Translations under genes and position numbers: made by a program | Shown here: one piece after another, positions 40,224-44,369 of the stretch | Layout: every line of letters starts with the position of its first letter | Position numbering within the stretch: position 1 is the first letter of the stretch | The notes under the pieces: model-generated | Told to the model about the DNA's origin: nothing | What the model saw: only the letters and a program-made list of their open reading frames with translations | The model's database searches: none | DNA from: Flavobacterium terrae | GTDB taxonomy: Bacteria; Bacteroidota; Bacteroidia; Flavobacteriales; Flavobacteriaceae | Direction: 5' to 3' | Length of the DNA stretch: 64,000 nt | NCBI RefSeq assembly: GCF_900142035.1 | Contig: NZ_FQZI01000001.1 | Coordinates: 744,001 to 808,000, forward strand

Positions 40224-40313
40224 TTTTAGTTTGTTTAATCAAATTTAATATTTAAACCCAAATATTTGAATTATATTTTGTTAATTCGAAATATTAATGA
40301 TTTTGTTTTTAGA

Positions 40314-40952
40314 ATGTTTGTGCGAATAGTTTGTTTTTTATTTTTTGTGATTTTTTTTGTTTCTTGTAAGAAGAATGAAAAAATGATTGAGTATAGACCT
40401 TATATTATTTCAGAAGAAAGAAAAAAGTATGAAATGCAAGATGAACTATATAAGGAGGGAAAAATTGACAAAGTTGTTCTCACACATTTGCCTGAGTATT
40501 TTTATGGAAGTGAGAATTTTATTTTAGATGATAGTTCGAATGTTTATTACTATCAACTTGAAAGGTTTTTTAGTGCTTCAGGCTGTGGGACAGATACAGG
40601 AAAGGATTCAATTCCTTACTTTTTAAAATTAAAACCAGAAAGCTTTATTAAATTGCCTTTAGAATCAATTGATGGTTTTCTAAAGTTGAATTTTAGAAAA
40701 GGAGAAAGAAATGCCGTTAAAATAGCTTCTCAAAAAGATACCCTAAATTCAAAAGCATATTTTAAACTTCAAGAATCTTTGGATAAATATCTTGATTATA
40801 GAGAAGATAGAGATATTTACCTTATCTATCCAACAACTCAAGAAGAAGATGTTGTATTACTGTGTAAAAAATATAAGAAAGATTATAACTCTGATTCTAT
40901 AAAATGGGACAAGAAAAGGATTAGATTTCCAATGTCTAAAATCCATGAATAA
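40314..40952 (+). CDS. Lipoprotein of unknown function
   Basis: 212 residues. The signal peptide MFVRIVCFLFFVIFFVSC ends in a lipobox with Cys18, followed by a Lys/Asn-rich tether. The mature part is polar with many Tyr and Asp and ends with IRFPMSKIHE. I recognise no domain. The ATG at 40314 is chosen because the reading frame's TTG at 40266 would place 16 extra residues before the signal peptide. It is separated from the nucleotidyltransferase gene by a short divergent gap, so it may or may not belong to the cluster. Confidence 0.65.
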   Translation: MFVRIVCFLFFVIFFVSCKKNEKMIEYRPYIISEERKKYEMQDELYKEGKIDKVVLTHLPEYFYGSENFILDDSSNVYYYQLERFFSASGCGTDTGKDSIPYFLKLKPESFIKLPLESIDGFLKLNFRKGERNAVKIASQKDTLNSKAYFKLQESLDKYLDYREDRDIYLIYPTTQEEDVVLLCKKYKKDYNSDSIKWDKKRIRFPMSKIHE

Positions 40953-40957
40953 TATTC

Positions 40958-40996
40958 TGTGATTTTTGTCATTTCGACCAAAGGGAGAAATCACAT
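40958..40996. repeat. Left copy of inverted repeat flanking the GIY-YIG gene
   Basis: Bases 40965-40996 are the exact reverse complement of 41345-41376 (32 bp, no mismatch). The shared core includes GTCATTTCGACC and GGGAGAAATCACAT. This copy also folds on itself: TGTGATTT (40958-40965) pairs with AAATCACA (40988-40995). The stop codon of the GIY-YIG gene is four bases away. Confidence 0.9.
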
Positions 40997-40999
40997 AAT

Positions 41000-41329
41000 C
41001 TAAAGTTGTTCAAAGTGATGATTCAAAAATTCAAATTTAGGATTGAAATTTTTTATTAGCTCAGTCTTTTTATCTCTTCGCCATTTTTTTAATTCTTTTT
41101 CTCTTGCAATAGCATCTTCAACCCAAACGAATTTTTCATAATAAACCAAAAACTCTAAGTTATAATTTGAAGCAAAGGTTTTATTACTAAGTCTTATATT
41201 TTCTTTATGTTGGAATAACCTCAATTTTAAATTATTAGTTATGCCTATATATAATGTCGACCTGTATTTGTTTGTGATTATATAAACATAGTAGGAATGG
41301 AATCCTATTTGTGGATTGAATTCATTCAT
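41000..41329 (-). CDS. Small GIY-YIG nuclease-domain protein
   Basis: 109 residues made almost entirely of one GIY-YIG domain. YYVYIITNKYRSTLYIGIT gives the GIY and YIG halves, LKLRLFQHK supplies the catalytic Arg region, and VEDAIAREKELKKWRR carries the metal-binding Glu. This is the small YhbQ/UvrC-type single-domain form that cuts or nicks DNA. The ATG at 41329 is chosen because upstream codons run through the inverted repeat and into polA. The gene is bounded on both sides by the 32-bp inverted repeat, which makes it look like a cassette inserted between the lipoprotein gene and polA. Confidence 0.9.
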   Translation of the reverse strand: MNEFNPQIGFHSYYVYIITNKYRSTLYIGITNNLKLRLFQHKENIRLSNKTFASNYNLEFLVYYEKFVWVEDAIAREKELKKWRRDKKTELIKNFNPKFEFLNHHFEQL

Positions 41330-41344
41330 GGAATAAATAACTTT

Positions 41345-41376
41345 ATGTGATTTCTCCCTTTGGTCGAAATGACAAA
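41345..41376. repeat. Right copy of inverted repeat flanking the GIY-YIG gene
   Basis: Exact reverse complement of 40965-40996, reading ATGTGATTTCTCCC and GGTCGAAATGACAAA at its ends. ACTTTA (before it) and TAAAGT (after the left copy) extend the symmetry with a four-base offset. It lies 15 bases before the GIY-YIG start and 21 bases after the polA stop. Confidence 0.9.
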
Positions 41377-41397
41377 CTGTAAAATAATGACTAATTC

Positions 41398-44244
41398 TTA
41401 ATGCGCTTCCAACCAATCTTTACCTAATCCCATTTCAACTTCTAATGGTACAGCCATTTTGAAAGCATTTTCCATTTCGTGTTTGATCATAGGTTGTATT
41501 TTTTCGATTTCAGAATTGTGAACATCGAACACAAGCTCATCATGTACCTGAAGTAACATTTTTGATTTGTAATTATCTTCTTTCAATCGTTTGTGTATGT
41601 TAATCATGGCTATTTTGATAATATCCGCAGCACTTCCCTGAATAGGCGCATTGACAGCATTTCGTTCAGCAGCACCACGAACCACAGCATTCGCTGAATT
41701 AATATCTTTTAAATAGCGACGACGACCTGAGATGGTTTCTACATAACCATTATCACGAGCAAAATCTACTTGGTTGGCCATGAATGATTTTAGCTTTGGA
41801 TAGGTTTTGTAGTAGGCGTCAATCAACTCTGCACTTTCTTTACGTGAAAGAGAAGTTTGATTTGATAATCCAAATGCAGAAACGCCATATATAATTCCGA
41901 AGTTTACCGTTTTTGCATTACTACGTTGTTCTTTTGTTACTTCTTCTGGAGAAATATTGAACACCTTTGCAGCAGTGCTTCGGTGAATATCTTCGTTATT
42001 TTGGAAAGCGGCAATCATATTGTCTTCGCCTGAAAGCGCAGCAATAATGCGCAACTCAATTTGAGAATAATCGGCAGAAAGCAAAGTGTAATTTTCATCA
42101 CGAGCAATAAATGCTTTTCGTATTTGACGACCTCTTTCGGTACGAATTGGGATATTCTGTAAGTTAGGATTGTTTGAACTTAAACGTCCAGTTGCAGCAA
42201 CAGTTTGCATATAATCGGTATGAACACGTTGTGTTTTTTTATCTACCTGTTCTGGCAAAGCATCCACATAAGTGCTTTTTAGCTTTACCAATTGGCGCCA
42301 TTCTAATATGTCTTTTACAATTTGATGCTCGTTGGCTAAATAACTTAATACTTCTTCACCAGTAGCGTACTGACCCGTTTTGGTTTTCTTTTGTTTGGAA
42401 CCGCCAATTTTTAATTTATCAAATAAGATATCTCCTAATTGCTTTGGCGAAGCTAAATTGAATTTCTCACCTGCTTCTTCATAAATCTTGTTTTCGAAAG
42501 TTTCAATCTCTTTCTGCATGTCAACTGACATTGATTTTAGAAAGTTTTCGTCAAGGTTAATGCCTTCTCGTTCCATGTCCGCAAGAACTTGAATTAAAGG
42601 GATTTCAATTTCATCAAATAGTTTTTTAGTGCCAACACGTTCTAAAATAGGTTGAAAATGTTCTTTTAGTTGAAAAGTGATATCGGCATCTTCTGTGGCG
42701 TATTCTTTAATATCTTCTAATGCTACGTCACGCATTGATAATTGGTTTTTTCCTTTTTTACCAATTAATGTTTCGATCGATTTTGGAGAATATTTTAAAT
42801 AGGTTTCAGACAATACATCCATGTTGTGACGCATGTCTGGATTAATCAAATAATGCGCAATCATGGTGTCAAACAAGTTTCCTTTTACTTCAATACCATA
42901 ATTAGCTAATACTTTTAAATCGTATTTTACATTCTGACCAATTTTTTCAATTTTGTCATTTTCGAAAAAGGGTTTGAATTTGTCAATTAGAACTTGAGCT
43001 TCTTCTTGGTTTTCTGGGAATGGAATGTAAAATCCTTTCCCTTTTTCCCACGAAAGGGCTAAACCAACCAATTCAGCGTTTATTGCATCGATGCCAGTTG
43101 TTTCGGTGTCAAAACAAACTGATTTTTGATTTTGAAGATTTTGTAATAACAATTTTAAAGGTAAATCTCCTTGAACGGTTTGGTAAAAGTGCGAAGTGTT
43201 TTCTAGTGTTGCGTAGTACGAATGTGATTTTGGTTCGTCACTATCTTCATCTACAAAACCGAATAAATCCATTTGATTTTCGGGAGTTTTCTTTACAGCT
43301 GTTTTTTTAGTTTGTGGTTTGTTGTTGTCCTCGGTAGTTGTAATTTCATCATATTCTTTTCCAGAGCCGAATAATTTGTCAAATTGTGTTTTTAACTGAC
43401 GGAATTCCAATTCTTGAAATAAAGCATCTGTTTTTTCTACATCTGGTTTAGAAAGTTCATAATTTTTAGCATCAAAAGTAACGGGGCAATCGAGTAGGAT
43501 AGTAGCCAGTTTTTTAGAAAGTAATCCTTGCTCTTTATTTGCTTCAATTTTGTCTTTTATAGCACCTTTTAATTGATGTGTATTGTTCAATAAATTTTCT
43601 ATGGAACCATATTCGGCTAAAAATTTCTTAGCTGTTTTTTCGCCCACGCCCGGCAAGCCGGGGATATTATCTACGGCATCTCCCATCATCGCTAAGAAAT
43701 CAATAACTTGTAAAGGGTCTTGGACTTCAAATTTGGCTTTCACTTCTTCTACTCCCCAAATCTCAATATCATTTCCTAATCGAGCAGGGCGGTACATGAA
43801 AATATTTTCTGAAACCAATTGTCCAAAATCTTTATCTGGTGTTACCATGAAAACTTGGTATCCTTCTTTTTCGGCTTGTTTTGCCAATGTTCCAATTAAA
43901 TCATCGGCTTCAAAACCGGCTTTTTCGATAATTGGAATATGCATGGCTTGCAATAATTCCTGAATGTAAGGAACGGCAATTTTAATAGCCTCAGGAGTTT
44001 CGTCACGGTTTGCTTTGTACTCGGTGTACATTTCTAAACGATAATCGCTTCCACCTTTGTCAAACGCTACGGCTAAATGATCTGGTTTTTCGCGCTTAAT
44101 AACATCAATTAATGAATTCATGAATCCTAAGATGGCTGAAGTATCCATGCCTTTAGAATTAATTCTCGGATTTTTGATAAAAGCGTAATATCCTCTAAAA
44201 ATTAAAGCGTATGCGTCGAGTAGAAATAAGCGTTTTTGTGACAT
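41398..44244 (-). CDS. polA: DNA polymerase I
   Basis: 948 residues with all three activities. The 5' nuclease domain (1 to about 300) opens KRLFLLDAYALIFRGYYAF and has GFEADDLIGTLA. The 3'-5' exonuclease domain (about 350-540) keeps its metal residues: CFDTETTG, QNVKYDLKVL and YATEDADIT, so proofreading should be active. The polymerase domain has motif A DYSQIELRI, motif B RSNAKTVNFGIIYG and motif C QVHDELVFD. The ATG at 44244 (MSQKRLFLL) is chosen over an upstream frame extension. It acts in repair and in removing RNA primers. Confidence 0.97.
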   Translation of the reverse strand: MSQKRLFLLDAYALIFRGYYAFIKNPRINSKGMDTSAILGFMNSLIDVIKREKPDHLAVAFDKGGSDYRLEMYTEYKANRDETPEAIKIAVPYIQELLQAMHIPIIEKAGFEADDLIGTLAKQAEKEGYQVFMVTPDKDFGQLVSENIFMYRPARLGNDIEIWGVEEVKAKFEVQDPLQVIDFLAMMGDAVDNIPGLPGVGEKTAKKFLAEYGSIENLLNNTHQLKGAIKDKIEANKEQGLLSKKLATILLDCPVTFDAKNYELSKPDVEKTDALFQELEFRQLKTQFDKLFGSGKEYDEITTTEDNNKPQTKKTAVKKTPENQMDLFGFVDEDSDEPKSHSYYATLENTSHFYQTVQGDLPLKLLLQNLQNQKSVCFDTETTGIDAINAELVGLALSWEKGKGFYIPFPENQEEAQVLIDKFKPFFENDKIEKIGQNVKYDLKVLANYGIEVKGNLFDTMIAHYLINPDMRHNMDVLSETYLKYSPKSIETLIGKKGKNQLSMRDVALEDIKEYATEDADITFQLKEHFQPILERVGTKKLFDEIEIPLIQVLADMEREGINLDENFLKSMSVDMQKEIETFENKIYEEAGEKFNLASPKQLGDILFDKLKIGGSKQKKTKTGQYATGEEVLSYLANEHQIVKDILEWRQLVKLKSTYVDALPEQVDKKTQRVHTDYMQTVAATGRLSSNNPNLQNIPIRTERGRQIRKAFIARDENYTLLSADYSQIELRIIAALSGEDNMIAAFQNNEDIHRSTAAKVFNISPEEVTKEQRSNAKTVNFGIIYGVSAFGLSNQTSLSRKESAELIDAYYKTYPKLKSFMANQVDFARDNGYVETISGRRRYLKDINSANAVVRGAAERNAVNAPIQGSAADIIKIAMINIHKRLKEDNYKSKMLLQVHDELVFDVHNSEIEKIQPMIKHEMENAFKMAVPLEVEMGLGKDWLEAH

Positions 44245-44369
44245 TCTTTTGTAATTTGAAATGTAAAAATAATCAATCGAAATATAAGTTGTCAATCAAT
44301 AGTTAAAATTTGATTAACAAAATCCTATCGTGTTGAGTTTCTTTGTTACTTTGTTCAAAAATTATTGAG

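Follow-up and report, generated by a model that had tools for sequence, protein, structure and literature searches.

The window, a stretch of 64,000 nucleotides from Flavobacterium terrae, probably carries a GIY-YIG nuclease gene of an Ssn-like branch that is bracketed by its own recognition word, a hairpin that the enzyme would read and cut near its foot while repair spreads gene and word. The observations behind this reading are an intact gene between a pair of repeats, a family-wide association of such genes with such words, compensatory changes in the stems, loops that track the protein clade, dispersed ~100-bp pairs of words, and the absence of the cassette from the two closest genomes.

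As we picture it, the word folds into a short hairpin: GTCA forms an invariant foot, followed by a stem of 4 bp whose sequence is free, two GA steps that face each other and a loop typical of the protein clade. We infer that the nuclease binds this hairpin, most likely reading it in single-stranded or extruded DNA (during replication or in incoming DNA), and that it would cut near the GTCA foot with specificity for single strands. A cut at such hairpins elsewhere would be repaired from a copy with the gene or with the paired word, and cutting and repair could in this way keep gene and word together and spread both slowly.

The cassette beside polA

The cassette and its neighbours are as follows.

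41000..41329 (-): GIY-YIG nuclease gene, 109 aa, Pfam PF01541, E 4.8e-16
40965..40998 (+): left arm of the 34-bp inverted repeat, with hairpin word GTCATTTCGACCAAAGGGAGAAATC at 40968-40992
41343..41376 (-): right arm of the 34-bp inverted repeat, with hairpin word GTCATTTCGACCAAAGGGAGAAATC in the opposite direction at 41349-41373
41398..44295 (-): neighbouring polA, DNA polymerase I gene, Pfam DNA_pol_A, which locates the site in relatives
40266..40952 (+): neighbouring ORF, uncharacterised, without a Pfam match; a homologue lies beside polA in genome G194

A search of 40800-41600 for inverted repeats returned a single pair, with arms of 34 nt that are 100% complementary; the initial annotation had described a perfect 32-bp repeat, and was right about its perfection and short on its length. 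The gene that it placed between the arms is indeed intact, with a PF01541 match over profile positions 2-76 of 78, and a longer reading frame to 41416 is mere read-through of the right repeat. Its statement that the left copy folds as a hairpin also holds and extends to the right arm, since the two arms carry one word, oriented in opposite directions, and therefore fold alike. As single-stranded DNA the word has a modest fold (-3.6 kcal/mol, z -1.93, equalled by 11 of 200 shuffles), and across the genus the words are predicted to fold weakly as single strands (z +0.44 to -1.93).

The two arms are the sole sites in the window of the core GTCATTTCGACCNNAGGGAGAAAT at up to 3 mismatches (0 in 100 shuffles), and the pattern GTCATTTCGACN{2,14}GAGAAATC finds only these arms in the whole of the bacterium's own genome (3.16 Mb, 19 contigs), where the whole-genome word search revealed no REPIN population. 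A looser free-stem pattern matches the same genome 14 times, against 10 for the reversed control. Five of these 14 stems are fully complementary and one more pairs with a G-T; the five comprise both arms plus three solitary words, and the one whose stem is ATTT may be a chance match. A further small GIY-YIG gene of this genome (L001, G000 contig 12 near 448896) has three copies of TGAGCGGAGTCGAA on one flank and a single inverted copy on the opposite flank.

GIY-YIG is the sole Pfam match in the cassette, where neither a transposase nor a HuH domain was found. The AlphaFold2 model of the 109-aa protein has a mean pLDDT of 88.3, and its relatives are under purifying selection (median dN/dS 0.08 over 407 pairs). 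By fold and sequence the nearest solved relatives are the UPF0213 proteins BH0048 (1zg2) and EF2693 (1ywl), together with Slx1, at weak scores (best Foldseek E 2.3e-3, none at E 1e-3 or better; 1ywl at E 6e-4). With BH0048 and the structure-reading nuclease Slx1 as its nearest folds, the model would fit a hairpin-reading mechanism, weakly. A defence-system reading was dropped, a PADLOC search for such systems having given no match.

Small GIY-YIG genes and their hairpin words

PF01541 matches occur in 61/61 sampled genomes of the genus, and flanking by a repeat is common among the small genes of this kind. When 300 bp on each side were compared for a local match scoring at least 40, direct or inverted, both flanks had a repeat in common at 84/107 small GIY-YIG genes and at 7/316 control genes drawn from twenty 20-kb regions of the same genomes. 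Many loci of one set had been picked for tandem genes, and the other sets are reported apart: at loci not picked for tandem arrays, flank repeats were present in 29/43 and 27/34. The type of repeat tracks clade when the loci are ordered by the protein tree.

The hairpin types reduce to one general word, GTCA-N4-GA-loop-GA-N4', which lies within 300 bp of 40/108 genes, on both sides of 25, compared with 10 and 1 of the 316 controls. The initial annotation had proposed to check whether small GIY-YIG genes are repeatedly flanked in this way; together with the flank test, this count shows that they are. The general word is found 115 times in the 64 kb of flanks of the 108 genes and 18 times in 400 kb of control sequence, and five other head words each match those flanks at most once. 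The loop is typical of the protein clade while the stem varies: it is short in the window's clade, and GCGAAGTC, GCTTGTC, GCGCAGTC or long in others. The narrower word of the window's clade stands at 64/81 loci whose protein is at least 60% identical and at 1/29 below that level. Among 103 distinct loci of closer relatives, drawn from congeners and from named genomes, the paired word is on both sides of 74, on one side of 19 and absent from 10; a lenient word search at the best 30 congeneric loci gave 26, 2 and 2, respectively.

With both sides of the stem left free, stems were complementary in 83/90, 40/52, 63/70 and 26/37 distinct words with loops of 5, 6, 7 and 8 nt, whereas the best of 2000 shuffles reached 31, 18, 49 and 20. 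By this comparison of sequences, the stem changes by compensatory pairs. The free-stem count is our evidence for covariation; a formal pair count on 19 words was set aside as biased, because those words were chosen for pairing stems. A stem of free sequence fits a reading of structure, not of a long fixed double-stranded site, and the finding that in many related bacteria such a gene lies next to a version of the word peculiar to it suggests that the nuclease recognises the hairpin.

Dispersed copies, inheritance in place and competing explanations

Away from the gene, the TTTC form of the word is present in 90/199 congeneric genomes, with a maximum of 162 copies (G120), and absent from the reversed control. 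A count of the repeat core genome-wide and in relatives, proposed at the outset, thus yielded nothing beyond the two arms at home and a recurring word in congeners. Of 70 genomes whose clade gene matches at E 1e-30 or better, 56 contain the word, as do 34 of the 129 that lack such a gene, and at least 10 copies are found in 20/70 and 3/129, respectively, by a statistic that ignores kinship. In three genomes (G102, G183 and G164) the word is present 49, 40 and 37 times although no clade gene reaches E 1e-30, which may reflect gene loss or a weaker dependence on the gene. The dispersed copies are partly ~100-bp REPIN-like inverted pairs, and the spacer between plus and minus words is 50-52 nt in 12/13 pairs and 42 nt in one, as counted in regions chosen for listed pairs. 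At one dispersed REPIN site of G015, six relatives have other sequence; in a second such comparison the flanks could not be anchored. A block of ~310 bp in L280 (G006 contig 5 near 226800) is absent from G015 (L258). It consists of a REPIN nested inside other inverted repeats of the GCAAAGTCGCGAAG.. type, and showed no clear duplication in a targeted alignment; at this site G008 has a pair with another stem.

The closest genomes at polA, G194 and G191 (99% and 98% over 175 residues), are without the cassette: their best GIY-YIG matches to the window protein reach only 2.5e-18 and 1.8e-21, and they contain 0 copies of the word. In G194, polA and the homologue of the other neighbour are kept with about 85 bp between them, gene and word are absent, and no intact target was seen at a site too diverged for a junction; in G191 the other neighbouring ORF is unrecognisable in the alignment. 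The search for an empty site at polA thus located relatives but gave no legible junction. Because these two genomes lack it, the cassette may be mobile, as comparison of the sequences suggests. Where two loci encode proteins of 90% identity or more (48 pairs), a neighbouring ORF is common to 26 pairs and not to 22, and inheritance is therefore often vertical; the window locus has a neighbouring ORF in common with no other locus. The cassette thus seems to move at times and often to be inherited in place.

Several other explanations could be considered. The cassette could be a transposon of its own, in which the GIY-YIG protein serves as transposase, the terminal inverted repeats are the 34-bp arms and the ~100-bp REPIN-like units are internally deleted copies. 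The perfection of the repeat, the constancy of the REPIN-like spacers and the two genomes without the cassette could all be read in this way, but in many relatives each side of the gene has words or entire REPIN-like pairs where a transposon would have a single terminal pair, no target duplication was seen in the one block difference that could be aligned, and the cassette word has no second copy in its own genome; we regard a transposon as unlikely. For an insertion sequence with MITE derivatives, the sites compared likewise gave no legible empty site, and the cassette has no transposase domain. A homing endonuclease, whose gene sits inside its target (the REPIN-like pair), cuts intact double-stranded targets and is copied in by repair, would explain why the window cassette is arranged and oriented like a REPIN that has the gene where its spacer would be, an order also found at L119, L120, L125 and L135. 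Whole pairs stand on both sides of the gene at other loci, however, no intact target was seen at the diverged G194 site, and the freely varying stem fits structure better than a long fixed double-stranded site, which together make homing improbable.

It is also conceivable, although we would give it limited weight, that the nuclease acts on incoming single strands and that the words influence uptake or recombination in the neighbourhood of chosen genes, a reading compatible with the one we prefer. The Ssn/NTS system of Neisseria reportedly has such a genome-marking role, in which uptake or recombination is modulated, and that study, the GTCA hairpins of the Neisseria relative and the purifying selection on the protein all point this way; against it, the window genome has two words only, both at the gene, and PADLOC gave no match. 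Finally, the hairpins might be terminators or other regulatory palindromes, and the gene a bystander in a repeat-rich intergenic region. The words are intergenic and other palindromes do gather at such sites, yet this reading is disfavoured by the control genes of the same genomes (7/316 and 10/316), and an enrichment specific to the head of the word, a loop that tracks clade and only 2 changes between hairpin and tRNA states on the tree of 197 proteins leave it very improbable. We therefore retain, as the probable explanation, a nuclease gene bracketed by its own recognition word.

Other phyla, tRNA genes and known systems

The association is not confined to the genus. In a Bacteroidota sample, the loci with the best scores supplied 35 small genes, two of them from an Acidobacteria MAG; of the 35, 15 have the GA word, 10 an upstream tRNA gene on the same strand and 0 both; in Acidobacteria the GA word is found at 6/27 small genes and a tRNA at 2/27. 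A GTCA hairpin, mostly without GA steps, is present at 11/13 loci from a plasmid collection, some of whose records are chromosomes filed there. These loci include Neisseria gonorrhoeae, Aeromonas, Photobacterium, Azospirillum, rhizobia, Sphingobium and Planktothrix; the hairpin is absent from one Novosphingobium and one Rhizobium locus among the 13. The 300-bp sides of these genes hold 34 words in 7.8 kb, compared with 11 in 27.3 kb farther out, 9 of which come from the loci of Neisseria and Photobacterium, in which it is a common word. The plasmid-collection records were used instead of a Limnohabitans MAG (L197), which was left out as the Proteobacteria entry because its GIY-YIG gene lengths looked Flavobacterium-like.

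The N. gonorrhoeae gene (L362) has GTCA hairpins on both sides, and its protein is 42% identical to that of the window over 88 residues; in the tree of 197 proteins both belong to one clade of 87 rows with branch support of 84. We infer that this gene is ssn itself. GIY-YIG genes stand beside GTCATTCCCGCG..CGGGAATC words in L362, in Aeromonas (L357) and in Photobacterium (L363), and this core we take to be the dRS3/NIME-type repeat of Neisseria. Such neisserial words resemble ours in flanking the GIY-YIG gene of L362 and differ in having no GA steps and a longer GC stem.

Other small GIY-YIG genes form a sister branch and immediately follow the 3' end of a tRNA gene on the same strand (L002, in the window's own genome at G000 contig 15 near 229451; L036, L038, L041, L044, L027, L078, L107, L113, L114, L314 and others). 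A tRNA gene is within 800 bp of 31/108 small GIY-YIG genes, against 2 tRNAs in 400 kb of control, and its isotype (Met, Val, Pro or Ala) tracks clade. On the tree, the states hairpin (107), tRNA (29) and neither (61) are so distributed that hairpin and tRNA need 2 changes. Downstream of the gene, 15/34 chosen loci have a 26-42-nt copy of the tRNA 3' end, L038 having an array of five with a 350-bp period; most copies run from the GTC that precedes the T-arm, and another hairpin stands in for the anticodon arm. The literature matches listed contained nothing on GIY-YIG nucleases of the tRNA branch.

It is possible, though we put it forward tentatively, that small GIY-YIG nucleases form one large hairpin-guided class with two branches, one at free GTCA-foot hairpins in several phyla (the dRS3-like Neisseria word included) and the other at tRNA genes, where the T-arm with its GTC foot would replace the hairpin; the class would then be to GIY-YIG enzymes what REP/RAYT is to transposases, and would supply the enzyme responsible for several widespread intergenic palindromes of unexplained origin. 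For a common and mostly unexplained kind of intergenic palindrome there is thus a candidate enzyme, and the rule that links them (foot, stem pairing, GA steps and clade-specific loop) can be tested with a single small protein and some oligonucleotides. Should the enzyme read hairpins in single-stranded DNA, the many clades would provide a natural set of enzymes of differing specificities, and the tRNA branch, if true, would offer a nuclease gene a way of settling at tRNA genes without an integrase.

By layout, the closest known system is that of REP palindromes and their RAYT genes, with a different enzyme and a different foot (PMC3733652, PMC6006769, PMC1564403). REP/REPIN with RAYT (TnpA-REP) has in common with our cassettes the fixed-foot palindromes, the inverted pairs, the single-copy gene between them and the clade-specific words; RAYT is an HuH tyrosine transposase, whereas the window cassette encodes a GIY-YIG protein. 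REP palindromes have GTAG or CGTC tags (PMC3733652), where the window foot is GTCA, and the high copy number of REP/RAYT contrasts with two exact copies in the window's own genome, although the relative G120 has 162. The likeness to REP/RAYT noted in the initial annotation thus survives as an analogy, in the REPIN-like pairs and the clade-typical loop, and fails as membership on enzyme, foot and copy number. Among the literature matches listed, none joins GIY-YIG nucleases with such repeats.

The closest known kind to the window system is Ssn. Ssn proteins, reportedly the subject of a 2025 study in Nature Communications by Chenal ... Veyrier, are said to belong to the GIY-YIG superfamily, to have many homologues and to cleave single-stranded DNA site-specifically at a genomic repeat; the first case is reported from Neisseria, where NTS is one such target. 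The window protein is likewise small and stand-alone, at 109 aa, and related to the Neisseria protein (42%), and here too a specific repeated DNA word goes with the nuclease, in only two copies in its own genome. Relative to Ssn, the flavobacterial system is distinguished by a word with GA steps and a covarying short stem, by REPIN-like pairs, and by a single cassette in its own genome.
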